The translations under genes and the position numbers were made by a program. This document shows positions 12,311 to 31,448 of a DNA stretch of 35,753 nucleotides, piece by piece. The DNA comes from Phycisphaerales bacterium. GTDB taxonomy: Bacteria; Planctomycetota; Phycisphaerae; Phycisphaerales; UBA1924. The stretch spans positions 1 to 35,753 of the forward strand of contig JARGPA010000029.1 of NCBI GenBank assembly GCA_029213305.1. The letters run 5' to 3'. Position 1 is the stretch's first letter, and each line of letters opens with the position of its first letter. The notes under the pieces are model-generated. The model did not search any database. It saw only the letters and a list, made by a program, of their open reading frames with translations, and had not been told where the DNA came from.

Positions 12311-13009
12311 TTACTCTGACTTTGATTTACGCGTTGTTGAGCTTTTCTTGCGAGATCCAGAACTCGGTTTAGGAGCTCGTTGATCTGATGCCCAATGCTC
12401 GATAAGGGTATAGAACCGCAATGCATCATTCGCACGAACAAGTCTTTCCATACGATGAGTTTGTTCTGTGATATTCAAAGAGGTGTCAGTAATATCGTGT
12501 TTCGACAGTTGCTTTGCGAGCCAATCGTCGATCGGGAATGCATGCCAACCAAGTCCAAGTAAGATTACACGCGATGATACGAAAGGAGGGAGTCCATCGA
12601 TGCTTGCAAAGTACTCTACAACATCTTTCTTGTTCATCTCGCGGAGATGTGCAAGCTTGAGTTGGTTCTCACGAAGAAAGATCTGATTGAGGATCGTGAT
12701 CAGTCTCTGACAACGATCTAATGTGCGAGGATACCGTGCAGGCATGATCGAAACCAGTTCTTCAGGACTACACACCCGAAGCTCATTGAGATCAATTAAC
12801 TCCTCGGACATTTTTTCTACTGCACGCAGTGCGTGTTCTACGGAACTCTCCCAGACGAGCATAGAGAAGACAAGCTCGCTGACGAGTTCATCGTCAGAGA
12901 TCAGACGAGGATCGATCTGATCCTTGCAGCCGACGCCTCCAAGTCCGTCGTAGGACTTTTCAAGAGTGCTCATAAATCGAGTCATACTATCTGGATCGAG
13001 CGGCTTCAC
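12311..13009 (-). CDS. Degenerate endonuclease III-like (HhH-GPD) protein lacking the catalytic lysine
   Basis: This 232-aa protein follows the Nth fold order: SELVFSMLVWESSVE (like the LLSAQATD helix), RYPRTLDRCQRLITILNQIF (like the IKTIGLYNSKAENI region), then IDGLPPFVSSRVILLGLGWHAFPIDDWLAKQL (like the HhH and the VDTH helix). In that alignment the catalytic Lys of G-V-G-R-K is replaced by a hydrophobic residue, the active-site Asp is kept (PIDDW), and no four-Cys cluster follows. The tail is basic and Ser-rich. It may bind DNA or RNA without lyase activity. The start is GTG, overlapping the rbfA stop in GTGA (4 bp), so coupling to rbfA is expected. A true Nth is encoded at 3956-4702. The assignment is by pattern and should be treated as probable. 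Confidence 0.6.
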   Translation of the reverse strand: MKPLDPDSMTRFMSTLEKSYDGLGGVGCKDQIDPRLISDDELVSELVFSMLVWESSVEHALRAVEKMSEELIDLNELRVCSPEELVSIMPARYPRTLDRCQRLITILNQIFLRENQLKLAHLREMNKKDVVEYFASIDGLPPFVSSRVILLGLGWHAFPIDDWLAKQLSKHDITDTSLNITEQTHRMERLVRANDALRFYTLIEHWASDQRAPKPSSGSRKKSSTTRKSKSE

Positions 13010-13452
13010 GATTCATCTGCCCCCGCAGGATCGGCTGTGTCAGGAACTTCTGATGAAACATCAGTTTCTGCAACCGGATCGGTACCAAACTTTGATTGTT
13101 CGCGGGTTTCGCGTTCCATTCGATCTTGCTCAAGCAATGCAAAGACTTCTTGTTCTGCTTTGTGTCCCTCGTCATAGATCAGTTTGAGGGTTGGCATTTC
13201 CTTTATATGTATCCGCTGCATGACATCTCTGCGAAGTCTACTCGTCGCAGAAATCAATCCATGCATCGTTAGCTTTGCTCGATCCTCGGGTAACACTGAG
13301 ATGTATGCTTTCGCATGTTTGAGATCATCGCTCAACTCAACCTTGGTCACAGTGACCAACCCACGGATCCGCGGATCAGATAGACCTTTGGCAAGACGCT
13401 TTTGGAGCTCTTGCTGGATGTTGGATGAAATTTGTAAACTTCTTCGTCTCAA
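13006..13452 (-). CDS. rbfA: Ribosome-binding factor A
   Basis: RbfA is a KH-fold assembly factor for the 30S subunit and 16S rRNA 5' end maturation. Recognisable parts are the N-terminal helix SLQISSNIQQELQKRL, LSDPRIRGLVTVTKVELSDDLKHA, AYISVL and MPTLKLIYDEGHKAEQ, followed by a 40-residue acidic tail (DPVAETDVSSEVPDTADPAG). I chose the TTG at 13452, because GGAGAG lies six bases before it and the resulting N-terminus has the usual family length. GTG at 13470 and TTG at 13485 are in-frame alternatives with weaker ribosome sites. It follows infB by about 93 bases that include a 9-bp hairpin, and overlaps the next gene by GTGA. Confidence 0.9.
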   Translation of the reverse strand: MRRRSLQISSNIQQELQKRLAKGLSDPRIRGLVTVTKVELSDDLKHAKAYISVLPEDRAKLTMHGLISATSRLRRDVMQRIHIKEMPTLKLIYDEGHKAEQEVFALLEQDRMERETREQSKFGTDPVAETDVSSEVPDTADPAGADES

Positions 13453-13504
13453 TGATGACTCTCCACGCACTAGATACCCACACAAGCTCGATTAGGTTTC
13501 ACAT

Positions 13505-13545: not shown

Positions 13546-16341
13546 TTAATCAAGTGTTCGAGCGACCTCGATTTTCTTGTAGCACTCAAGCACATCGCCC
13601 GACTTAATATCGTCGTAACCATGAATCTTCATGCCGCATTCCATGTTTGCTCGAACTTCCTTCGCATCATCTTTGAAGCGTTTGAGCTGCTCGAGTTTAC
13701 GATCGTTCTCAACAACCACACCATCGCGTGTAACACGAACGAGTGCATCTCGTTGAACGATACCGTCGGTAACGAAGCAACCCGCGATGGATCCGACCTT
13801 GGAGACCTTGAATACTTCGCGAACTTCTGCGTGTCCGAGTACTTCTTGACGGATATCTGGAGAGAGCAATCCTTCGACTGCCTTCTTGATATCATCAACG
13901 ATGTGATAGATCACCTGGTAGTTACGAATTTCGACACCCTTTGTTTCTGCTTGGGCTCGACCCTTAGAGTTTGCAATAACATTGAAACCAATGATGATCG
14001 CACGGGAAGCTTCTGCGAGAACGATGTCTGATTCAGTGATTCCACCAACTGCTTGATGGATAACTCGAACTCCGACTTCTTCGTTGCCGACCTTTTCAAT
14101 CTCTGATTTGAGAACATCGACAGAGCCTTGAACATCTGCTTTGAGCACAACAAGGATCTCTTTGAGATCTTTGTCTGCGATTTGAGTAAACATGTTGTCG
14201 AGAGTGAGCTTGGGTTGAGCAAGCATTGCTTCTCGCTCGCGATCACGGCGTTGCTCCGCAGCTTTCTCTGCTTCCTTGAGCGATGAGAGACAATAGAACT
14301 TGTCACCTGCATCTGGAAGATCATTGATACCCGAAATCTGAACAGGTAACGGCGGGAGCACGCTCTTGAGCTTGTTTCCACGATCGTCTGTAATGTCACG
14401 AACGCGTCCGAATGCTCTACCCATGACGATGAAGTCGCCGACTTTGAGTTCGCCTTCTTGGACGAGAATATTTGCGACATTACCTCGGCCGCCCTCAGGA
14501 CGAGATTCGATAACTGTACCTTGTGCTTGACCTGAGAAGTCACTCTTGAGTTCAAGGATTTCAGCTTGTAGATCCAAGATTTCAAGAAGCTCTTGAATAC
14601 CGATATCCTTGATCGCACTGGTTTTGACAACTTCGGTGTCCCCACCCCAATCTGTTGGGTTCAAACCATGCTCAGCGAGCTGGCCATAAATCCGTTGGAT
14701 GTTCTCTTCTGTCGCTTGCTCTTTGTCAATCTTGTTGAGTGCAACAATGATCGGAACGCCTGCGGCTTTCGAGTGGGAGATGGATTCGATCGTCTGAGGC
14801 ATCACCCCGTCATCCGCAGCGACGACCAATACGACAATGTCAGTGACATTTGCACCACGGCTACGCATTGCGGTAAACGCTTCGTGACCTGGAGTATCGA
14901 TGAAGGTAACAAATTTCTCAGTGTCACCTGTTGTTACCGGTACACGGAATGCACTCGTTGCTTGAGTGATACCACCCGCTTCACCATCTGCGACATTTGC
15001 TTTGCGAATCCGATCAAGGAGTGAAGTCTTACCATGATCTACGTGACCAAGGATGGTCACGATTGGGCCGCGAGCTCTCTCATCCTTGCGTGTTCGTTCT
15101 GCAAACTGTTCAACAACTTGCTCTTCAGCACCAATCGATTCTGATACATCGAGTTCGATGTCCCAATCAATCATGATCTCTTGTGCTTTTTCTGATTCGA
15201 TACCAGAGTTGATTGTTGCCATCACGCCTTGCATAAAGAGTTTCTTGACAATGTCAGCACCCTTCACACCTGTCGCAGCGGAGAGATCCTTAATCGAGAA
15301 TGGCGCGGAAATAGTAACTTTGCCCCCGATTTTCGCAGGAGTTTGTGCAGCGTTAGCAGATGAACGCATTTGCTGTTGGCGTTGCTTGAGATAACCGCCT
15401 GAGCTTTTGAGTCTCGCTTGACGATCAGCAAGATCCGCCGCGGTCCATCCACGTCCTGGACTTGAATCCGATCCAGGTCTGCGATCTCCTCCGTCACGTC
15501 GGCGTGTGTTACCTGCTCCGCCTCCGCCTCGAGGTGGGCGCCCTTCCATCGGCATCCCGTCACCCATACCTCCGCCTGTGCGGGGTGGTCTGCGTCGCGG
15601 CGCTTCGATCTGCTCGGGTGCTTCCACGCGAACAACCTTCGGCCCTGAGAGCTTGATCTGCGTCTTCTTTTCGAGTCTTGGACCCGCGGGTGCAATCGAT
15701 GTAGGACGCGTAGGTACATTCATCTCAGGTGGTGCAGTAGGCCCCTTGGTTGTCGGTTCCGTAGCACGAACAACTTGACCATCGGTTGCTGCTGGAGCGA
15801 CTGGGTCATTCGGTTCAGTTTGTCTCGCAGCCTCTGCTTGCGCGGCTTTGTCTGCTGCAGCTTTTGCAAGGGTATCTTCTTTGCGTTCTGGCAACTTGGA
15901 AGATAGTCCTGCAGGAACTCGGATCTTCGCCGTCGGTGGAGGCGGAGGTGGAGCAGGAGGCGTCGCAGGTGCTTTGATCGCAGTTGCGGGCTTTGCCTTT
16001 GTTGCTTTGATCGCTTTCGCAGGTGGTTCAGCAACCGCAGTCGTAGCGCCAGAGTCATCTTCTTTTGACTCGTCTGTGTCAGCAATCTTCTTTGCCTTCT
16101 TCGTATCACGAACTTTGGTGATGTCGACCTTCTCTGCCTGTTCAACAGCAGTATGTGGTGACTCTTCAGAGTCGTTCGTTGCGAACCATTCTCTGATTGT
16201 TTGTTCGAGACCAATGGATACCGTTGACATGTGATTCTTGATCACGTCTTTGGGTAGTCCTTCTGCATGACATTTTTCCACAATCGCTTTGGACTTGATG
16301 CCCAGGTCTTTTGCGATTTCAAAGATTCGTTTATTCGCCAA
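13546..16341 (-). CDS. infB: Translation initiation factor IF-2
   Basis: GTPase that brings initiator tRNA to the 30S subunit. The start is TTG at 16341 with GGAG six bases upstream. Residues 1-50 form the IF2_N-type domain (RIFEIAKDLGIKSKAIVEKC). Residues about 75-330 are a disordered Ala/Pro/Lys/Arg-rich linker containing a run of six prolines and Arg/Gly-rich stretches. A second IF2_N-like domain (ISAPFSIKDLSAATGVKGADIVKKL) precedes the G domain. The G motifs are GHVDHGKT (G1), DTPGH (G3) and NKID (G4). The C-terminal domains end with EVREVFKVSKVGSIAGCFV and a basic tail. The length of 931 aa is within the family range. It follows nusA by about 120 bases, the classical arrangement, but no ylxR/rpl7A-type gene separates them. 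Confidence 0.97.
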   Translation of the reverse strand: MANKRIFEIAKDLGIKSKAIVEKCHAEGLPKDVIKNHMSTVSIGLEQTIREWFATNDSEESPHTAVEQAEKVDITKVRDTKKAKKIADTDESKEDDSGATTAVAEPPAKAIKATKAKPATAIKAPATPPAPPPPPPTAKIRVPAGLSSKLPERKEDTLAKAAADKAAQAEAARQTEPNDPVAPAATDGQVVRATEPTTKGPTAPPEMNVPTRPTSIAPAGPRLEKKTQIKLSGPKVVRVEAPEQIEAPRRRPPRTGGGMGDGMPMEGRPPRGGGGAGNTRRRDGGDRRPGSDSSPGRGWTAADLADRQARLKSSGGYLKQRQQQMRSSANAAQTPAKIGGKVTISAPFSIKDLSAATGVKGADIVKKLFMQGVMATINSGIESEKAQEIMIDWDIELDVSESIGAEEQVVEQFAERTRKDERARGPIVTILGHVDHGKTSLLDRIRKANVADGEAGGITQATSAFRVPVTTGDTEKFVTFIDTPGHEAFTAMRSRGANVTDIVVLVVAADDGVMPQTIESISHSKAAGVPIIVALNKIDKEQATEENIQRIYGQLAEHGLNPTDWGGDTEVVKTSAIKDIGIQELLEILDLQAEILELKSDFSGQAQGTVIESRPEGGRGNVANILVQEGELKVGDFIVMGRAFGRVRDITDDRGNKLKSVLPPLPVQISGINDLPDAGDKFYCLSSLKEAEKAAEQRRDREREAMLAQPKLTLDNMFTQIADKDLKEILVVLKADVQGSVDVLKSEIEKVGNEEVGVRVIHQAVGGITESDIVLAEASRAIIIGFNVIANSKGRAQAETKGVEIRNYQVIYHIVDDIKKAVEGLLSPDIRQEVLGHAEVREVFKVSKVGSIAGCFVTDGIVQRDALVRVTRDGVVVENDRKLEQLKRFKDDAKEVRANMECGMKIHGYDDIKSGDVLECYKKIEVARTLD

Positions 16342-16464: not shown

Positions 16465-17874
16465 TTAGGCTTCGCCGCCCAGGATATCTGCGGCACGATT
16501 TTCAGATGCTTCATCTGGTTCAACCGCGTTGTCTTCATTCGTTGAAGCATTTTCTACACCTGAGTCAGCGCCCGCTGCGGCTGCTCCAAGGATCGCGGCA
16601 GCAGCAACCTCAGGACTTGCATCACCCGATGCTGCGCCCGATAGGATTGCTGATGCAGCTTGTTCTTCTTCTGCTTTTCTAGCGGCAGATTCTGCTTTCT
16701 CGATTTCCTGTTGTGCAGCGACTTCCTTCGCACGAGTCGCACAAAGCTCAACTGCATGTTGACTGCGTTCTTCATCGAAGTCGAGTTCGCTCATCAACAG
16801 ATCTTCGCCGATCTCTTCAACATCGAATACTGAGATCATGCCAAGCGCTGCGAGACGATCGATCATCTCATCAGTGAACCCTTCAATCTGATGCAAGGTT
16901 TCAGACAAGATAGTCAAGCCCTTCGTGAACTCTTCAGGAGTCAAGATGTCAACATCCCAACCTGTAAGTCTTGCAGCGAGACGAACATTCTGCCCACGCT
17001 TGCCGATTGCGAGTGAAAGTTGATCATCACGAACTACAACTGTCGCTCGTCCAAGCTCGAAGCACAACGAAATCTCGTTGACTTCTGCAGGTTTGAGTGC
17101 GTTTGCAATCAAGATCTGTGATGATTCGTTCCAACGAACGATATCAATTTTTTCGCCGTTGAGTTCTTCAACAATCGTCTTGATTCGTGATCCACGAATA
17201 CCAACGCATGCGCCGACCGCGTCGATCTTTGAGTCGATGGATGAAACAGCCATCTTCGTTCGATATCCAGCTTCGCGGGACATCGCTTTAATCTCGATGG
17301 TTCGTTCCATAACTTCAGGCACTTCAATCTCGAAAAGTCTGCGGATGAAGTCTGGGTGTCCTCGTGAGAGGTAGATCTTGACTTGAGCACCCATGTCCTT
17401 CACATCGAGGATCATCGCGCGAACTCGATCTCCAGGCATGAACTGTTCGCCCGGGATCTGCTCACTACGAAGCATGACAGTTTCTGCACGATCAACCTGA
17501 ACAACAAGCGCGCCCCGATCGTAACGTTGTGCGACTCCTGTCACCAGAGTGCCGACACGACTTGAGTATTCTTCCATCAATGACTGACGCTCGTCGTCAC
17601 GGAATCGTTGGATCATGACTTGTTTGAATGTCTGTGCAGCGATTCGACCGAAGTCGCCCGGATCCATATCCATTGGTTCGTTATAGCGGTAAAGCTGTAT
17701 CTCACCAGTAATTGCATCAACTGAACATTGGAACTCATCTGCGTCGAGTGTCCCAAAGAATTTTCTACACGCCGAAACCATCGCGGTCTCAAGGTCCGAA
17801 ATCAACAAGCTTTTTTCGACATTTCGATCGCGAGCGATTGAGTCAAGGATTCTCATCATTTCTTGGGTATTCAC
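16465..17874 (-). CDS. nusA: Transcription termination/antitermination protein NusA
   Basis: Binds RNA polymerase and nascent RNA to control pausing and termination. I chose the GTG at 17874 (MNTQEMMRILDSIARDRN), preceded by GGAG seven bases upstream; an ATG at 17916 and internal ATGs at 17859/17856 are alternatives. Domains in order are the N-terminal polymerase-binding domain (1-120), S1 (GTLVTGVAQRYDRGALVVQV), KH1 (VGACVGIRGSRIKTIVEELN), KH2 (LSLAIGKRGQNVRLAARLTGWDVDI) and an HhH-like C-terminal segment (TDEMIDRLAALGMISVFDVEEIGED). It ends in a 110-residue Ala/Glu-rich low-complexity tail. No rimP lies upstream; instead there is a structured RNA region. It is the first gene of the nusA-infB-rbfA-nth-like-TPR cluster. 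Confidence 0.96.
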   Translation of the reverse strand: MNTQEMMRILDSIARDRNVEKSLLISDLETAMVSACRKFFGTLDADEFQCSVDAITGEIQLYRYNEPMDMDPGDFGRIAAQTFKQVMIQRFRDDERQSLMEEYSSRVGTLVTGVAQRYDRGALVVQVDRAETVMLRSEQIPGEQFMPGDRVRAMILDVKDMGAQVKIYLSRGHPDFIRRLFEIEVPEVMERTIEIKAMSREAGYRTKMAVSSIDSKIDAVGACVGIRGSRIKTIVEELNGEKIDIVRWNESSQILIANALKPAEVNEISLCFELGRATVVVRDDQLSLAIGKRGQNVRLAARLTGWDVDILTPEEFTKGLTILSETLHQIEGFTDEMIDRLAALGMISVFDVEEIGEDLLMSELDFDEERSQHAVELCATRAKEVAAQQEIEKAESAARKAEEEQAASAILSGAASGDASPEVAAAAILGAAAAGADSGVENASTNEDNAVEPDEASENRAADILGGEA

Positions 17875-17954
17875 AGCAGTTCTCCGAAGTTCGAGTGCTC
17901 GTTTGTCATTCTTCAATCAACGAGCGATTTGGATGTTGGGTTGTTCAGTTGTTA

Positions 17955-17977: not shown

Positions 17978-18010
17978 ATTGGTTTCTATCAGGATTATTA
18001 CATGTAGTTC

Positions 18011-18050
18011 AAAAACACAAATGACCGCGAGCATCGTATGAGCCGCGGTC
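18011..18050 (-). terminator. Terminator of the structured RNA
   Basis: GACCGCG and CGCGGTC (18023-18029 and 18044-18050) form a 7-bp GC-rich stem that on the minus strand is followed by ATTTGTGTTTTTG (18022 down to 18010). The T-tract is interrupted, so termination may be partial, which would suit either an RNA 3' end or an attenuator in front of nusA. Confidence 0.6.
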
Positions 18051-18172
18051 GAACGCTAACGAGGGAAGAGCGAATCGCGTTCGCTTCTTGCCTGCAACTG
18101 GATGGACTACGCGATCATCGCATCGTCCGATCCTTCCTTTGCAGATCAGTATCGAAATGATTCGATGACCGA

Positions 18173-18202
18173 TTACCCATCATGGCGAATGACCATTGGC
18201 AT
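18173..18202 (-). CDS. Possible 9-residue leader peptide inside the structured RNA
   Basis: An ATG at 18202 is preceded by CAGGAG with a 6-base spacer, as good a ribosome site as those of the neighbouring protein genes. It opens a short frame, MPMVIRHDG, ending in TAA at 18173. The frame overlaps the hairpin at 18177-18199, so translation would disturb the fold. It may be chance; there is no run of identical codons like those of classical amino-acid attenuators. Confidence 0.3.
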   Translation of the reverse strand: MPMVIRHDG

Positions 18203-18245
18203 AAAACACTCCTGCTCTACGCACCATGCATAGAGATTCCAACCA

Positions 18246-18275
18246 AGTATAGAACAGGTGAATCAGTAGAATCAA
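18246..18275 (-). promoter_or_regulatory. Sigma-70-type promoter for the structured RNA
   Basis: On the minus strand TTGATT (18275-18270) and TATACT (18251-18246) are separated by 18 bases, each matching four to five of six consensus positions. Start of transcription is expected near 18239, immediately before the first hairpin. Confidence 0.5.
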
Positions 18276-18362: not shown

Positions 18363-19403
18363 TTATTTCTTGTCAGGGAACTGTCGTTGGACTCGATCGC
18401 CTCGAGCAACGAGTTTTTCGACCATGACTGCTCGATTTCCTCGATGTTGCCCGATTTGAGCAAGGAACTTAGGCTCCTGCTCAACAAGAATGAGAGCTGG
18501 GTCGTTTGCGTTGTTCGATGTCACGATCATGTCGCCGATCTTCATCTCGCTCAAATCTTTAAGCGTGATCGTCGTTTCTGCGAGTACAGAAGTGAGTGTG
18601 ACCCCTGTTTGATCAATGTTTGCATTAATCAAGTCCTCTGATGAGTTGTCATTTTCGCTTCGGTTAACAGCAAACCAGCTTTGTGAACTGAGCTCTTCCA
18701 TCACCGGTTCGATGACATTGTAAGGGATACACAAGTTCATCGTACCTGCTCTCGAGGCCATCCGGACTTCGAGCCCAATAACAAGCACCACTTCGTTGGG
18801 TGGAACAATCTGGACAAGTTGCGGATTCGATTCGTGAGCAACAATCTCAAAGTCGAGTTTGCGAACACTCTCCCAAGCTTCGGATAGCGCATCAAGGCCT
18901 CTGCGAAGTACATTGGAAATCAGGCGCTGCTCGATAGTCGTCATCGGCCGTTGAGGGATAAAGAGATCTTGGTTGTTCCCGCCTAGGAGACGATCAATAA
19001 TCGGGTAAATGATCAAAGGCGACACTTCAAGACACATCTGTCCTTCAAGGTCGTTCGGTTGAATCAGGTTGTAACTCGTTGGGTTCGGGAGTCCAGAGAC
19101 GAACTCGCCGTAGGTCATCTGCTCACACGCTGCGACTCGTACCTCAACGATCGTGCGCAAGAATCCGGAGAGTGAAGCACCAAAGTTACGAGCAAATGCT
19201 TCATGGAGCGTTTCGAGCGCGAGCATCTGATCCTTCGAAACGCGTTCAGGGCGTTTGAAATCATATTCTCGAATCTCAATATTCTCGACATGCTTTTGGT
19301 TGTGTGAGAAGATTTTTTGAACATGCTGTTCTTCTTCTGCTTCACCGGCCGAATCCACCGCCGCGAGCAGGGCATCGACCTCATTCTGGTCTAACATGCT
19401 CAT
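18363..19403 (-). CDS. fliM: Flagellar motor switch protein FliM
   Basis: FliM is the middle C-ring protein that receives phospho-CheY and connects FliG to FliN. The N-terminal CheY-binding/EIDALL-type motif is seen as MLDQNEVDALLAAV. The central domain is typical: DFKRPERVSKDQMLALETLHEAFAR, YGEFVSGLPNPTSYNLI and DRLLGG. A C-terminal SpoA-like domain starts near residue 265 (VLAETTITLKDLSEMKIGD). The length (346 aa) is normal. The ATG at 19403 follows a GGAG at 9 bases; an ATG two codons later is also possible. No other flagellar gene, not even fliN, is in this window, so it is detached from a flagellar operon. Confidence 0.95.
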   Translation of the reverse strand: MSMLDQNEVDALLAAVDSAGEAEEEQHVQKIFSHNQKHVENIEIREYDFKRPERVSKDQMLALETLHEAFARNFGASLSGFLRTIVEVRVAACEQMTYGEFVSGLPNPTSYNLIQPNDLEGQMCLEVSPLIIYPIIDRLLGGNNQDLFIPQRPMTTIEQRLISNVLRRGLDALSEAWESVRKLDFEIVAHESNPQLVQIVPPNEVVLVIGLEVRMASRAGTMNLCIPYNVIEPVMEELSSQSWFAVNRSENDNSSEDLINANIDQTGVTLTSVLAETTITLKDLSEMKIGDMIVTSNNANDPALILVEQEPKFLAQIGQHRGNRAVMVEKLVARGDRVQRQFPDKK

Positions 19404-22493: not shown

Positions 22494-25400
22494 ATGAATA
22501 ATCGATTAGTAAGGACTCTAAGTCCATATGTTTTGTGTGCTGCGTCTTCGGGGTTGGTCGCAGCGCCTCCGGTGTACGATACAGCAAATGATACCCAATT
22601 CCTGAGATTCCATGGCCGAGGAGATGTTTTGCGCACAGCTACCCCTTTTAACGGCTGCACCGCATTTCCGTATGGACTTGTTACAGACGATATGGGGCAA
22701 TACTTCCATGTCAGGCTTCGAGTACGACTCGCGCCAGAATCTGAGTACTCCATTATTGATGACAACAATATACAAACCTCAGGCCACACGACAGGTCGCA
22801 TTCTTTGGACGCAAGGAACGATTGAGTATGGTCAATACGCCGGATTCACAATCGGGTATGAGCATGATTCTGAGAATGATACAGGGTATTTGTATCTCGC
22901 GCTAGGTGATGGTGGTGATACCAGTGGTAACGAAGATGGACGAACCCAAATATGGAAAGCTGAGATCCAACTCGATGATGGTGAGTTCCATACCATTGAT
23001 ATAGGGTATGACGACAACTTTGACAGTAACGGCAACGGTTTAGCGTTTTGCTGGGTTGATGACACTGCGTTGGCTTTCACATCCTTGGTATCTACTGGTG
23101 TTCAAGATAGTAGTGTGCATCTGAATGGTTCCTGGTACGCCGGGGGCGCGATTATGGGTAATCCTAGATCAGATGCGCTGTCGAAGCTTTCTGGAACATG
23201 GACCGTATGGAATAACGTCATAGGTACACGAGATGTAGTTTGGCCGAATCCTAATGGATCTTCAAGTAGTGATGTAAACTCTCTTGACACTTATACAAGC
23301 GCAATTGGTGATGTTGCATACGCTGCATTCCGCTGGGCGCATCCAGAATCATTACTATCTGGCGCAAACAAATGGGATGTTGAGTTAAAACTCAATGGGA
23401 GTTTAGTTGATCAAGCAGGCGGGTTAGAGAACTCAAATGGTGTGAGCACCACCTCGTTACTTAGCGCTGAGGCTGGGTTCGACTCTACATTCCCTACATG
23501 GATTGATTCTGGATATACCGAGTTTACAAAGTGGTTCCCAAACCCGGTTAATCAATCCACGATACAGACGAATCATCAACAAACCCGTCAAATTCTTGTG
23601 TACCACCATGGGTTGGGTGATCAGGAAATTCGAGTCGAAGAATACAACGGGACAACTTCAACCAAACAACGAATTTCGCGATCGATCGTGATGTGTATCG
23701 AACCTGATGGAGAGATTGGACACTTTGTTGGGAGTTCGGACACACACGAGTACTCGCTTGTGCCTTCAGGAGCGTCGTATCCAGCAAATGGTCAGCACAC
23801 ACTCACACTACCTGCTGGGAAACCTGGACTGTACCGAATACTTGTCAAATCCGGGACAGCTAATGATGTGGAATACCCGCCTGGATCAGGGCAATTTCAA
23901 GATCATCGCGAAGGCTTCGCGTTTTCTTCGAATCAAGAAGTCATGTACTGGGGTGCGTTAGCGCCAATCGGGCGTCTTGAAGGTGTCGATGGACTCTCAG
24001 GATCTGCTTTTGCGTATATCCCTCGCGATATTGATAGTTGTGATTTCACAATCGCTTCAGGTACATCGCTTGTAGAGCGCCCATTAGATTCTTCTGGAGG
24101 GACACAGGTTACGAACGCAACATCCGATCTCTCGAACAAACCAGGAATCATTGAGGCAACTCTCGGGAGCAACTGGTCCGTGGATGCATTAAGACTCCCG
24201 TTCGCGCTTTGCAAAAACGAGTTTGGCGCACAACATTATATAAAAGGTGGGGTGATAGAAGAAGAAAATTTCACACTTTGGTCAATAGATGAAAAGATCC
24301 TAAGAGATCGAATAGTTGGAATTCTAGAGAATGAAGCACCATTCGGTGATCCCAATCTAATCATCGACGACTTTGGTGTTGTAAATCCTGGGGCTGGGAT
24401 TAATCATCACATCGTTCAAAACCCAAGACAGTATTACTCACTTGGGAGTTATCCGCGCGGTGTAGACTTGATCCACACCGCACTGCAACGCCAAGTGACG
24501 AGTGTCAACAACTGCATGGTGGGTTCAATCCATCAAGATAGTTCCACATCTTCTGCTCAACTCAAGTTTGGTGAAATTACAGATTGTGCGAACAACTTTG
24601 ATGAGTTTGCGCCCGCGCTTCTCTTCTGGGCTGGGTGGAAAGATGTGAATGCAAATCCTTACTTCGGTAAAGATGACATGAAGAGGCGTGCGCGATCCGC
24701 GATGCTCGCATATGCACGACATATTCAAGGAAACCGTCTGAGGTTTCAGAAAGGATCTGCGTCACTTACCCACGGGTACGGCGAGAACTCACTTCATCAC
24801 GGAAACGCAGGGCTTGGGGGCACCGCGGATCTTGGGATAGGTATGCACTGGGCGCGTGTGTTCAATGTATTTAATCAAGATGACTGGGATGCATTCCTGC
24901 TTGCATCTGCTATTCAGTTCTGTAACATTGCCAACGAATATCCAACTTCGACTCGTAATCAGGATCTTCATCATCTTCCATTTCTCTATGAGTTCGGGAG
25001 ACTCTGGGAGAACCAAACCGGATCTGGTGATGTAGGCACATGGGCAAGTAACTATGCGCATGAACTCATCGCTAACCCTGTGTGGGCTACGAGCGATGTT
25101 GCTTTAGAAGAAGCGAGAGGATTCGATGGGAGTTATTCAGGAATTCAGAACTACATGCTTGCTGCTGGATGGATCGTTTCTGGAGATAAGTTTGATCCAA
25201 ACAATACGGGTGTGAATGGTGATTACAACAGAGAATGGGATTTTCTTAGAACTCAGTTAAATGTACAGTATGATTTCTGGTCGCATTTTATGGCTTCATC
25301 TTCAGATGGAGAACAAATCATCTTCGGCCATGACAACGACAGTCGAACAACAAGAGGAACTGTTCTCGAACAGTACGGCGGCGCGAAAGCGATCGGGACA

Positions 25401-26675
25401 AGAGCAAGCGATATGGCTTCTCGTTTAGCACTCGAAAGTGGTACATCTCGCGCAGAAGATCTCTTAGCAAATGTGTGGCCGTACTCATTCGGTATTGGTG
25501 ACACATTTGCGGATACATCAGTTGTCGCTACGAGATGGACAAATGTTAATCAAGGTCGCAGTGGTAGTGCTCGATCAAATCTGATGCCTCTGTATGTAGG
25601 CGGAGCAACTGATCTGTTCGATATGTCAGGTGACCCTATTGATCACGGCGCGTTACTCCCTTCTGAAGTACCAGTTTCGGTAGGAGTACATCATGAAGAG
25701 ATTTCGCAAGCGTATCATGTAATTCACACGCCTTGCTACTACGCAATTGTTTCAGATCGAGTCCCGTATAGATTTTATTACCAAGACTCACTCGGAAGAC
25801 ATACTGTGATTCGTGATGTCGAAAATCACTCATTAACTTCGGGCGGCGGGGCGCATGATGATGGTACATCTCTCACTCATTACTTGAATGGGGATAAACC
25901 CTCTCATAGCGACGAACTAGGAGGGGTGGGGTTCTCGTTGCTCATAGATAAGACGACACCTTCAGGAAACTCTCCAGTAATTGTTGGACGAAACTGGTCA
26001 CCATTCACATCTCATCAGGTTGTGGGATTTACTGCAACCGGAAAACGTCGATGGGCAGAGCAAGAGAGTCGTATTCTAACATGGGATACGAATACATTCG
26101 GTCAAACTCAGTTAACTGTAAGTTATAATTTAAATGATGGAGATCAGGATCACCAAACTAAAGGGTATTTGATTGAGCGTGTCTACACCTTCAAAACGAG
26201 TACCATCGACATTGATGTAACAGTAAGTTACGATTCCGACGCCGAGCCGCTTGTTCGACTCGTTGAGAATGTTCCATTCGAGTTGAGTTCAACTTCGATT
26301 GGCGCTTCTGAGCGGGCTGCCCGATTGAGTCATCTCCAATCCGAGGAGTTACCTTGGGGAACGAACCCAGTATGGGACGAGTGGTGTGCGACGAACTGGA
26401 CTGAAAACGGTCTTCAGTATCTCGAGCAAGAGATCGGCTGGCTACAGAAAGATATCACAGTTCCAACGAGTAGCAATCCAACAACAACTTTGAGTTACTC
26501 ATTCAAACCTCAAGCAGCCTGTGCGATTCAAGGGCCGCTCAATCTCGAAACGAATACATTCACGCAAGTGTTAGAGTTCACTCGAGCATTCGAACAAGGC
26601 GATGCGAGTGCCGACTTGAATGGCGACGGAGTTGTTGATCAGATCGACTTGGCAATCTTCCTTAGTCATGAGTAG
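22494..26675 (+). CDS. Very large secreted protein with short dockerin-like tail, possible polysaccharide lyase/hydrolase
   Basis: AGGAGAAG precedes the ATG by 7 bases. Residues 1-24 are a short signal peptide (LCAASSGLVAA, cleavage likely before PPV). The 1393-aa product has an N-terminal beta-rich part (to about 300) with LamG/concanavalin-like texture. The middle region (about 560-960) is helical, with YGENSLHHGNAGLGGTADLG and RGFDGSYSGIQNYMLAAGW, reminiscent of alpha/alpha-toroid polysaccharide lyases. A beta-rich C-terminal region (about 1000-1360) follows. The last 20 residues, ASADLNGDGVVDQIDLAIFL, form one calcium loop of the dockerin type. I cannot name a family or catalytic residues. 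It is likely induced by a polysaccharide, given the dyads upstream. A terminator follows. Confidence 0.75.
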   Translation: MNNRLVRTLSPYVLCAASSGLVAAPPVYDTANDTQFLRFHGRGDVLRTATPFNGCTAFPYGLVTDDMGQYFHVRLRVRLAPESEYSIIDDNNIQTSGHTTGRILWTQGTIEYGQYAGFTIGYEHDSENDTGYLYLALGDGGDTSGNEDGRTQIWKAEIQLDDGEFHTIDIGYDDNFDSNGNGLAFCWVDDTALAFTSLVSTGVQDSSVHLNGSWYAGGAIMGNPRSDALSKLSGTWTVWNNVIGTRDVVWPNPNGSSSSDVNSLDTYTSAIGDVAYAAFRWAHPESLLSGANKWDVELKLNGSLVDQAGGLENSNGVSTTSLLSAEAGFDSTFPTWIDSGYTEFTKWFPNPVNQSTIQTNHQQTRQILVYHHGLGDQEIRVEEYNGTTSTKQRISRSIVMCIEPDGEIGHFVGSSDTHEYSLVPSGASYPANGQHTLTLPAGKPGLYRILVKSGTANDVEYPPGSGQFQDHREGFAFSSNQEVMYWGALAPIGRLEGVDGLSGSAFAYIPRDIDSCDFTIASGTSLVERPLDSSGGTQVTNATSDLSNKPGIIEATLGSNWSVDALRLPFALCKNEFGAQHYIKGGVIEEENFTLWSIDEKILRDRIVGILENEAPFGDPNLIIDDFGVVNPGAGINHHIVQNPRQYYSLGSYPRGVDLIHTALQRQVTSVNNCMVGSIHQDSSTSSAQLKFGEITDCANNFDEFAPALLFWAGWKDVNANPYFGKDDMKRRARSAMLAYARHIQGNRLRFQKGSASLTHGYGENSLHHGNAGLGGTADLGIGMHWARVFNVFNQDDWDAFLLASAIQFCNIANEYPTSTRNQDLHHLPFLYEFGRLWENQTGSGDVGTWASNYAHELIANPVWATSDVALEEARGFDGSYSGIQNYMLAAGWIVSGDKFDPNNTGVNGDYNREWDFLRTQLNVQYDFWSHFMASSSDGEQIIFGHDNDSRTTRGTVLEQYGGAKAIGTRASDMASRLALESGTSRAEDLLANVWPYSFGIGDTFADTSVVATRWTNVNQGRSGSARSNLMPLYVGGATDLFDMSGDPIDHGALLPSEVPVSVGVHHEEISQAYHVIHTPCYYAIVSDRVPYRFYYQDSLGRHTVIRDVENHSLTSGGGAHDDGTSLTHYLNGDKPSHSDELGGVGFSLLIDKTTPSGNSPVIVGRNWSPFTSHQVVGFTATGKRRWAEQESRILTWDTNTFGQTQLTVSYNLNDGDQDHQTKGYLIERVYTFKTSTIDIDVTVSYDSDAEPLVRLVENVPFELSSTSIGASERAARLSHLQSEELPWGTNPVWDEWCATNWTENGLQYLEQEIGWLQKDITVPTSSNPTTTLSYSFKPQAACAIQGPLNLETNTFTQVLEFTRAFEQGDASADLNGDGVVDQIDLAIFLSHE

Positions 26676-29118: not shown

Positions 29119-30552
29119 TCAACTCGCTTGAGCATGATCGTCCGGGTCAATCCCAAGTGTCTTCATCTTTTTGTAAAGAGTGGTTCGATTGATCCCCAAA
29201 ATCTCAGCGGTTTGTTGTCGATTCCAATCATTCGCCATCAGTGCTTGATAGATGATTTCGCGTTCAGGAATTAACATTGCATCATGCAATGTCATTGGAG
29301 CCCACTCTTGACTTGGAGAATCCGATTTATGCAATCGCAGAGTGGACTCTTCTTGCTCAACAACATGTGGAGGCAAGTCCTCAAGACCAATTGTCTGGGA
29401 TCGAGAGAGTACTGCTGCTCGCTCAATAATATTGGATAACTCACGCACATTGCCTGGATAGGAATATCTCCTGAGTGAATCTAATGCATCGGAGTTAAAC
29501 CCTGTAAACTGTCGTCCGAGTTCCTTTGATTGATCATCAAGGAAGTGCTCTGCGAGAGATTGGATATCCCCAACCCGATCACGCAATGGAGGCATCTCGA
29601 TCTTCACTACATTAATTCTGTAGTACAAGTCCTGTCTAAATGTGCCCGCTTCGACAAGATCTTCGAGTGCTTGGTTACTCGCAAGGATTACACGGACATC
29701 GACTTCGATCGTTTCGTTTGAACCCACTGGTTCAAACTTGCGTTCCTGGAGTACTCGCAACAACTTGAGTTGCATCGCAGGTGAAGCACTATTGATCTCA
29801 TCAAGAAAGAGCGTTCCACCGTCGGCGGCGAGAAACTTTCCAACCTTGTCAGCATGGGCTCCTGTAAATGCACCTTTTACATGGCCGAAGAGTTCGGATT
29901 CGAGCAGTGTTTCAGGGATTGATCCACACGCAAGCTCAACATAAGGCTGAGCTTGTCGATTCGATGCTTGGTGGATTGCACTCGCGATCATGCTTTTGCC
30001 TACACCGGATTCGCCCGTCATGAGCACAGTCGTGCGAGAGTTCGCGACCGCATGGACAGTCTCATAGATTTTAATCATTCGATGATCGTCGCCGACCATA
30101 TTTCCGAGCCCGAATGAAGATTCGAGACGGCTTCTCATTGTTGTATTCTCGCGAGCGAGTTCGTGATGACGAAGTGCTCGCTCAAGTCCCAGACGAAGTT
30201 CATCGTCTACGACTGGTTTTGTGAGGAAATCGACAGCCCCTAATCTGAGTGATTGCACTGCTGTTTCGACTGTGCCGTACCCTGTGAGCATGATGACAGA
30301 AGTTTGTCGATGGAGTTTCATAATCTCTCGAAGGAGATCGAGTCCACCCATCTCTGGAAGATTGATATCACAGAACGCAACCTGGTACGGCCCCGCAGAG
30401 CTCTCTTGTGCGCGATCGAGTTCTGCAAGCGCTTCACTGGGTGAATACACAGAGATCGCAGAACACCCTTCGTTAACGAAGAACTGTGCTAACGAATCTG
30501 CGACGATTGGATCATCATCGATAACAAGAATGCGGGGATGCTCAGAAATCAC
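29119..30552 (-). CDS. NtrC-family sigma-54-dependent response regulator
   Basis: Three domains fill 477 aa. The receiver (1-120) has the acidic pocket DDD (12-14), phospho-acceptor Asp62 (FCDINLPEMGG) and TKP Lys. The AAA+ domain (about 150-380) has Walker A GESGVGKS (180-187), the sigma-54 contact loop GAFTGA (227-232) and DEIN Walker B. The Fis-type helix-turn-helix at the end carries RQQTAEILGINRTTLYKKMK. It therefore opens sigma-54 promoters after phosphorylation. The start is GTG, overlapping the stop of the kinase gene by 4 bases (GTGA), so the kinase at 30549-31448 is the probable partner. Target genes are unknown; PilR-like control of pili is possible because pilT is next door. Confidence 0.95.
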   Translation of the reverse strand: MISEHPRILVIDDDPIVADSLAQFFVNEGCSAISVYSPSEALAELDRAQESSAGPYQVAFCDINLPEMGGLDLLREIMKLHRQTSVIMLTGYGTVETAVQSLRLGAVDFLTKPVVDDELRLGLERALRHHELARENTTMRSRLESSFGLGNMVGDDHRMIKIYETVHAVANSRTTVLMTGESGVGKSMIASAIHQASNRQAQPYVELACGSIPETLLESELFGHVKGAFTGAHADKVGKFLAADGGTLFLDEINSASPAMQLKLLRVLQERKFEPVGSNETIEVDVRVILASNQALEDLVEAGTFRQDLYYRINVVKIEMPPLRDRVGDIQSLAEHFLDDQSKELGRQFTGFNSDALDSLRRYSYPGNVRELSNIIERAAVLSRSQTIGLEDLPPHVVEQEESTLRLHKSDSPSQEWAPMTLHDAMLIPEREIIYQALMANDWNRQQTAEILGINRTTLYKKMKTLGIDPDDHAQAS

Positions 30553-31448
30553 TCGCCTCCGATCTGTAGATCAAGATCTTCGGGTTCACAAACTGAGGGG
30601 ATACAAACTCGAAGGATTGCACCAGGTCGACGAGTGTTTGCTCGTTCTTCACGATCAGTAAGTGTAATTACCCCTTCGAGTTGTTCAACGATCTGATGCG
30701 CCATTGAGAGTCCAATGCCTTGATGATCTTTGTTCGTTGAAATACCGTGCTTAAATGCACGATTGTTTCGCACGCTTGATTGGAGTCCGACCCCATCATC
30801 AATAATCTCAATAACTGTCTCTTCTCGTTTTTGATCAACTCTTGCAATGATCTCGATCAATCCACCAGGATCAAGAGAATCGGGAGTGAGTGCTTTGGAG
30901 ATTGACTGAACTGAGTTGAACAATGCGTTGAGCACTACGCTGTACATAGGGCCTGCAGGGAGTCTACCAGCGCGTGGATCGATACGGATATCAATGCGAA
31001 CTCCCGCTTGATTTGCAAGAGGGCGCACAACATCGACAGCATGATCAATTACCATCGCGATGGTAACAACGCTCGAAACTCCAAGAATCGGTGAACCAAT
31101 TGGGACCGACTTCGATCGCATCGCGGCATTGACCATTGAACTCATCCGTTCAAGAGTTGAAAGGACTGTTCCGATTTGCTCGCGTGCCTTTGAAAGATCT
31201 TCTAGATCTTTTCGACGATCTTCCTCAGGTAGTGCAGCTGCGGCTAACCCTAACCAACGCATAGATCCATCAAGCATGTTGCTCAGGTCATGTGCAAGCA
31301 TCGTGATATGATCCGCCGCGAGAGGGCTCGAAGATGTGTCTCGCACTGCGAGAACACCTGGGGGACGGATCGTCTTTTTCTCAGGTGTCCCCTGTGTTTC
31401 CTGCGGGTTGGAATCATCTGGTGTCGAGTTGTTAGGATTGCTGCTCAT
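30549..31448 (-). CDS. Soluble sensor histidine kinase
   Basis: The 299-aa protein has no membrane segment. A Ser/Pro-rich disordered N-terminus (1-45) precedes the H-box LAHDLSNMLDGSMRWL with His53 as the likely phosphorylation site. The ATPase domain shows the N box (NALFNSVQSI), G1 (DDGVGL) and G2 (GIGLSMA). There is no sensor domain, so the input must come from a partner protein or complex. It is the first gene of the pair with the NtrC-type regulator (4-bp overlap). No strong ribosome site precedes the ATG, and the promoter-like sequence sits almost on the start codon, so the mRNA may be nearly leaderless. Confidence 0.88.
   Translation of the reverse strand: MSSNPNNSTPDDSNPQETQGTPEKKTIRPPGVLAVRDTSSSPLAADHITMLAHDLSNMLDGSMRWLGLAAAALPEEDRRKDLEDLSKAREQIGTVLSTLERMSSMVNAAMRSKSVPIGSPILGVSSVVTIAMVIDHAVDVVRPLANQAGVRIDIRIDPRAGRLPAGPMYSVVLNALFNSVQSISKALTPDSLDPGGLIEIIARVDQKREETVIEIIDDGVGLQSSVRNNRAFKHGISTNKDHQGIGLSMAHQIVEQLEGVITLTDREERANTRRPGAILRVCIPSVCEPEDLDLQIGGE

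Follow-up and report, generated by a model that had tools for sequence, protein, structure and literature searches.

In the trp, his and tna attenuators, translation of a leader ORF decides between a terminator and an antiterminator. Rfam includes a rimP-leader family, and the nusA leader of B. subtilis is not known to have an antiterminator or a chain of leader ORFs. The rimP-leader, as Naville and Gautheret (2010; PMC2965389) present it, is a short GGGc...gCCC terminator with no larger conserved element; in their account most species have no visible antiterminator, and several Gammaproteobacteria have a potential antiterminator together with a second terminator. For B. subtilis, a review (PMC12288461) describes termination that NusA stimulates in the leader of its own gene; control of the E. 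coli operon by NusA is described in PMC6511841, and a premature terminator before rimP-nusA-infB of S. agalactiae in PMC4448216. Two-codon minigenes (AUG-X-stop) in the leaders of axe-txe, LEE1 and ycbK alter the expression of the next gene and act in cis where tested; PMC8708949 portrays them as single cases, which it explains by protection of the mRNA or by effects on translation of the next gene.

The window analysed here is a stretch of 35,753 nucleotides from a Phycisphaerales bacterium, in which a minus-strand feature sits between fliM (18363-19403) and nusA (16465..17874), as placed by a Pfam search of the window. An earlier note had taken 18011-18275 for an unrecognised and almost fully paired RNA, either a free small RNA or a leader that controls nusA-infB by termination. 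The minus-strand unit is real and is conserved before nusA in genus relatives, and it is the second of the two roles that we develop: the stretch before nusA is probably the leader of a nusA-infB-rbfA mRNA and would act as a translation-sensing transcription attenuator. This unit runs past 18011 up to nusA, whose likely GTG start at 17874 is inferred from relatives, and infB (13546-16341) and rbfA (13006-13485) follow 3' of nusA on the same strand, in the same operon. Read along the minus strand, the elements are a sigma70-type promoter, three short frames (ORFs A, B and C), a terminator, ACAAC octamers and nusA-infB-rbfA. RimP was not found in this genome (assembly 92% complete) despite NusA, IF2 and RbfA standing in a row. 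Elsewhere in the window, 29119-31448 (minus strand) encodes a sigma54-activator response regulator adjoining a histidine kinase-like ATPase protein, and 22494-26675 (plus strand) is an ORF of 1393 residues with no Pfam match at E up to 0.001.

At the DNA level the stretch matched 6 of 60 relatives, all in the window's genus. The genus set consisted of the DNA before nusA from 21 genus genomes, of which one (G019) ends at a contig edge, leaving 20. From 19 genus sequences we made a covariance model of the 3' half; searched under stricter filters, it gave one match per genome in 20 of the 21, including G014, which was not among the 19, and comparison of positions placed all 20 matches just before nusA. 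The model also matched weakly in a genome of another family (G044), away from its nusA, and only 2 of 30 loci outside the genus matched clearly. FliM was found upstream in just 15 of the 21 genus loci (in 2 of the other 6 the upstream DNA is short) and in 32 of the 80 loci of our best-80 set, where upstream DNA is likewise short at some loci, so the element tracks nusA and not fliM.

The promoter comprises a -35 hexamer TTGATT at 18270..18275 and a -10 hexamer TATACT at 18246..18251, the latter in the context TGTTCTATACTT, so that the TTGATT-18-TATACT of the earlier note is located at 18275-18246 on the minus strand. The -10 pattern precedes nusA in 20 of 20 genus members having upstream DNA, and the -35 box, which reads TTGATTCT in many genus members, is missing from some; transcription would start near 18239. 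Just 5' of the ORF A Shine-Dalgarno, the consensus fold of 19 genus sequences has a hairpin, P1 (18218..18232, minus strand), in which 3 of 5 pairs show two-sided changes. On the sequence alone, the promoter scan is at chance level (1 found versus 1.8 in shuffles) and a terminator scan of this part of the window called no terminator; the case thus rests on relatives. Among these, a sigma70-like promoter site (9 or more of 12) occurs at 29 of 58 loci, versus 1.8 in shuffles, in the 140-base stretch that begins 90 and ends 230 bases upstream of ORF C.

The terminator hairpin, GACCGCGG...CGCGGTC, lies at 18023..18050 and runs into a T-rich tail, ATTTGTGTTTTTG, at 18010..18022, which is interrupted by a G and conserved in the genus alignment. 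The GC stem and T-rich tail of the earlier note are thus borne out at 18050-18010 on the minus strand: the tail pattern precedes nusA in 19 of 20 genus members (G014 has a variant), and the helix is fully paired in 18 of the 19 aligned sequences having letters there, G017 being gapped, with a C-G to G-C change in 5 sequences. Across the wider set, a terminator-like hairpin (folding energy of -10 kcal/mol or lower, followed by a T-rich tail) comes after ORF C at 63 of 77 loci versus 9.8 in shuffles, and outside the genus at 43 of 57 versus 8.3; the median distance from ORF C to the hairpin is 65 nt. Between terminator and nusA, by contrast with the region upstream of the ORFs, a sigma70-like site was found at 1 of 55 loci against 1.8 expected, which is chance level. 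Read-through of the terminator is therefore the simplest route to nusA, as the leader reading of the earlier note would have it.

The main conserved feature of the region is one that the earlier note had missed in stating that it holds no protein, namely a set of short conserved frames led by Shine-Dalgarno motifs. ORF A (18173..18202, minus strand like all that follow) is an ATG with eight further codons and TAA (MPMVIRHDG*), preceded by AGGAG at 18209..18213, a GGAG-type motif in the genus alignment; it falls into an enriched class of 9-codon frames. It is overlapped by ORF B (18115..18183; 22 codons, MMGNRSSNHFDTDLQRKDRTMR*), whose AUG lies 8 nt before the ORF A stop, with a second ATG 5 nt before, and such overlapping pairs recur across loci. 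ORF C (18115..18123), ATG CGA TGA, has two codons, shares its stop with ORF B, and follows its own Shine-Dalgarno, AAGGAAGGA (18131..18139), which is also seen in the genus alignment; it belongs to an enriched class of NUG-X-stop frames.

Shine-Dalgarno-led ORFs were counted by length between -480 and -60 of nusA in a main set of 91 loci (the best 80 of a longer nusA list and 11 further genus loci), 85 of which were usable, having enough upstream DNA without N, and were titled mostly Phycisphaerales or Planctomycetota. Order membership was read from the record titles, and all counts take related genomes as independent. Two-codon ORFs are present in 70 of 85 leaders versus 5.9 in shuffles and ORFs of exactly 9 codons in 43 versus 4.7, with lesser excesses at 7 codons (12 versus 4.6), 14 codons (11 versus 4.0) and 15 codons (10 versus 3.8); in some loci ORF A itself has 14 or 15 codons. 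For the two-codon and nine-codon classes respectively, the antisense strand gave 6 and 1 of 85, upstream regions 8 and 2 of 79 (6 and 1 of 79 on their antisense), and regions further upstream 1 and 1 of 61. The overlapping A/B pair is found at 59 of 90 loci (9.3 in shuffles), the pair with a Shine-Dalgarno before the ORF B stop at 55 (2.0), and the full form, in which ORF B ends as Shine-Dalgarno plus NUG-X-stop, at 41 (0.0 over 40 shuffles per locus); the upstream control for these three gave 2, 0 and 0 of 79.

The arrangement extends beyond the genus, where the pair is found at 39 of 70 loci and the full form at 21 of 70. ORF B is open up to ORF C in all 18 of the loci inspected outside the genus, ending in frame with ORF C in 13, with an AUGA-type overlap at the ORF C start in 4 and two bases short of it in 1. 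For an out-of-sample set we took 30 of 40 relatives outside the genus, one per genus, and dropped 6 repeats. With the rules unchanged, the 24 new genera that were kept gave 17 two-codon ORFs (1.1 expected), 8 nine-codon ORFs (1.05), 17 A/B pairs (1.2) and 12 full forms (0.02); 7 had no Shine-Dalgarno-led two-codon ORF and 7 no A/B pair. In a phylum sample of 40 upstream regions from 87 NusA matches, the two-codon ORF was present at 4 of 4 loci of this order and, with ATG, GTG or TTG, at 4 of 36 outside it; at one locus of the same class and another order (G111), a wider Shine-Dalgarno rule yields ATGATTTGA before a terminator-like hairpin. One leader (L046) carries the ORF C region, ATGACCTGA with its flanks, twice as a tandem duplication, about 374 and 293 bases before nusA and 81 bases apart.

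How ORF C begins was assessed at the 72 of 114 loci that have the pair and a Shine-Dalgarno near the ORF B end. Before X stands ATG at 48 of them, GTG at 5, TTG at 3 and CTG at 1, whereas Val and Leu codons of any other kind are absent; ORF C is in frame with ORF B in 53 and overlaps its stop out of frame as NTGA in 8, while 11 loci, the TTG and CTG cases among them, fit neither form. All three stop codons are used. In these respects the codon before X behaves as a start codon does. ORF C is mostly the end of ORF B and not a free-standing ORF. The ORF B AUG lies mostly 8 nt ahead of the ORF A stop codon; in other loci it is 7, 5 or 1 nt ahead, or begins 2 nt past the start of that codon; this variable offset makes a programmed frameshift from A to B unlikely and fits a restart instead. 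Peptides A and B show little sequence conservation. ORF A often ends in His/Asp/Asn, then Ala/Val/Gly, then Arg or Gly before the stop, probably because the overlapping ORF B AUG fixes NATG there. Neither peptide has a shared run of one amino acid and codon X varies freely, so no single amino acid is read. Taken together, comparison supports the promoter and terminator, and supports the leader and ORFs A, B and C well; ORFs A to C would, by their signals, be translated.

Several observations in the genus connect ORF A with the terminator. A segment within ORF A (18185..18195) can pair with 18046-18056, and since the latter overlaps the terminator 5' arm, this antiterminator and the terminator are mutually exclusive. 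Across the genus, ORF A bases 8-18 pair with the terminator 5' flank and 5' arm, and the ORF A window ranks among the best 10% of partners at 16 of 19 loci, one locus having been dropped. In the alignment of 19, 84.2% of antiterminator cells are paired versus 28-43% with one side slid, and 13 cells show two-sided changes versus 7.7 in shuffles (7 of 500 as high); the number of antiterminator pairs with two-sided change (5) and that of further pair types (10) are not above shuffles (248 and 490 of 500 as high). At column 224, U-A has become C-G with ORF A in 4 sequences, where the terminator pair only weakens from A-U to G-U; this compensation points to selection on the antiterminator. The earlier note had made its reading depend on conservation and covariation in relatives, and both are found: conservation is genus-wide, with one copy before nusA in 20 of 21 genomes, and terminator and antiterminator covary.

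The antiterminator is supported by comparison in the window's genus only. Outside it, ORF A ranks in the top 10% at 6 of 28 loci (eight were dropped, having no placed terminator) or, with another placement of the terminator, at 5 of 33 versus 3.3 by chance (six dropped). The pairing is strong there in L042, L057, L060, L071 and G040, and we rejected the ORF A antiterminator as a general rule; other clades must switch otherwise or not at all. Pairing of ORF C with a terminator arm, which looked perfect in a few loci (L071, L086 and L089), was rejected as a general rule too, with 11 of 59 loci in the top 10% and a median rank of 0.34. When the A/B junction was masked, as a ribosome would block it, the computed terminator probability rose by more than 0.2 in 15 of 38 loci and fell in 1; a mask on ORF C had little effect, with a rise in 5 and a fall in 1 of 59. 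The window leader already favours the terminator unmasked (0.74) and hardly changes with the A/B junction masked (0.76), which counts against the model.

Between terminator and nusA, a pattern search located a tandem octamer, ACAACTGA-ACAACCCA-ACATCC (17931..17952, minus strand), with a period of 8. At least two copies of the ACAAC-type octamer are present at 66 of 117 order loci versus 6.8 in shuffles, with a spacing of 8 or 16 in 44 of 117 leaders versus 0.3, and up to nine ACAWC copies stand in one leader; two copies were found at 0 of 36 loci outside the order. In the window's own genome the three-copy pattern occurs once, as does a reversed control, and two-copy octamers occur at seven other places (control 3); the six such places that were looked at comprise five inside long open frames and one (L183) between frames. 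As a candidate, the octamers may form an array to which a protein with KH domains, NusA for instance, binds. A crystal structure of mycobacterial NusA reportedly holds RNA with the letters AACUCAA, which resemble the repeat ACAACUCA; a literature search found no paper text on this RNA.

An array specific to nusA is one of the observations that would speak for feedback by NusA alone, with NusA promoting termination at the interrupted-U terminator and the mini-ORFs just keeping the leader covered, without being the sensor. The tail is indeed interrupted across the genus, the window terminator is favoured without any mask, and accounts of B. subtilis (review PMC12288461) and S. agalactiae (PMC4448216) describe NusA-stimulated termination in the nusA leader and a premature terminator before rimP-nusA-infB, respectively. 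The fixed arrangement of Shine-Dalgarno-led frames and the antiterminator through ORF A are left unexplained by such feedback, and we regard feedback by NusA alone as unlikely. NusA as a sensor in its own right is plausible from other bacteria and from the nusA-specific array.

In a structured RNA without translation, the frames would be side effects of conserved RNA motifs. The minus strand does fold better than dinucleotide shuffles (z -2.74, 2 of 200 shuffles as good), as the note's pairing beyond chance would require, but so does the plus strand (z -3.16), and folding alone therefore proves little. The almost fully paired RNA of six hairpins was not recovered: the genus consensus fold keeps just 22 pairs in 269 columns, and for the window leader the centroid (-61 kcal/mol) lies well above the MFE (-98.7 kcal/mol), which counts against near-full pairing. 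The genus consensus does have a helix around ORF C, in line with a purely structural role. The set of ORF C starts (ATG, GTG and TTG) with all three stops, the frame changes in ORF A that retain nine codons in the genus alignment, and the slight structural likeness outside the genus (the same 2 of 30 clear loci) argue against an untranslated RNA and make it quite improbable. The note's failure to match known RNA families stands, since an Rfam covariance search of the window and region returned no family at gathering and none at E up to 10. ARAGORN and Rfam found no tmRNA at the feature, and that identity was rejected, the genome's tmRNA lying on another contig (144 bits).

The first option of the earlier note was a free small RNA; terminated at 18010, it would be active elsewhere, with nusA under a promoter of its own. 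This option could draw on the promoter and terminator that the unit possesses and on its single copy in 20 of 21 genus genomes. The chance-level promoter-like sites between terminator and nusA and the persistence of the element before nusA even where FliM was not found upstream make it highly improbable, although termination would still yield a product of about 230 nt. Least credible is a conserved product consisting of one or two micropeptides (A and B) acting in trans, since, for all that open frames, Shine-Dalgarno signals and stop codons are kept, ORF B ranges from 17 to 73 codons with an unconserved middle part and in one genus clade (G001, G003, G004, G006, G007, G008 and G017) peptide A uses another frame of the aligned RNA.

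Returning to the translation-sensing attenuator, the conserved mini-ORFs and the terminator before nusA-infB imply that ribosomes probably help set the amounts of NusA and IF2. We infer the coupling, the direction of the switch, its signal and what ORF C and the octamers do as follows. RNA polymerase would start at the conserved promoter upstream of ORF A. With no ribosome on ORF A, its RNA would pair with the 5' side of the terminator and polymerase would read into nusA-infB. Because ORF A RNA pairs with the terminator 5' arm, a ribosome bound to ORF A could release that arm: on initiating there it would cover the antiterminator segment, and, staying on through the end of A and a restart at the overlapping ORF B, it would let the terminator form and turn the operon down. 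ORF C, with its own Shine-Dalgarno, may hold the ribosome in short start-stop cycles at the ORF B end, and further feedback may come from NusA, acting at the terminator or on the octamers. As IF2 is encoded in the operon, this would amount to negative feedback on initiation capacity, and perhaps also on NusA. A bolder version, which we offer tentatively and hold to be rather doubtful, makes the leader an order-wide ribosome counter, in which the first ribosome on the three linked mini-ORFs reports the ease of start and restart and so sets IF2 and NusA by termination, with NusA reading the octamer array.

In that version, a start-stop ORF used for sensing ahead of the operon of an initiation factor would represent an attenuator of a new type. 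How cells set IF2 and NusA amounts is an old question, for which published work on E. coli and B. subtilis points to termination that depends on NusA. If the model holds, the supply of an initiation factor would be tied directly to the act of initiation; the leader also provides a case, natural and repeated, of selection acting on a two-codon gene. A search of titles and abstract starts, with most subscription journals outside its coverage, found no publication on such a mini-ORF leader.

Compared with the described systems, the leader is like the rimP-leader in placing a premature terminator ahead of the nusA/infB operon, where NusA is the suspected regulator according to PMC2965389, and unlike it in having the three mini-ORFs and, within the genus, an antiterminator. 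The rimP-leader covariance model gave no match at gathering or at E up to 10, and the TGGG..CCCA-T pattern of a rimP-leader-type terminator was found at 0 of 114 order loci versus 20 of the 36 phylum-sample loci outside the order (L116-L151); the order thus seems to have replaced the rimP-leader, and this order of the Planctomycetota appears to use a linked mini-ORF leader in place of that widespread type. As in the B. subtilis case outlined in PMC12288461, nusA would be attenuated within its own leader. A terminator lies between the promoter and the first gene, as in ribosome-mediated attenuators generally, and in the proposed model leader ORF translation decides between terminator and antiterminator, as it does in trp, his and tna. 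Unlike those, the leader has no run of regulatory codons, with codon X varying freely, and it has three linked ORFs, the last of two codons, before an operon that encodes an initiation factor. In its Shine-Dalgarno-led NUG-X-stop it resembles the two-codon minigenes of axe-txe, LEE1 and ycbK (PMC8708949), which likewise have AUG-X-stop in a leader; unlike them, the two-codon ORF here is conserved across an order, is mostly nested in ORF B and stands at that median 65 nt before a terminator.
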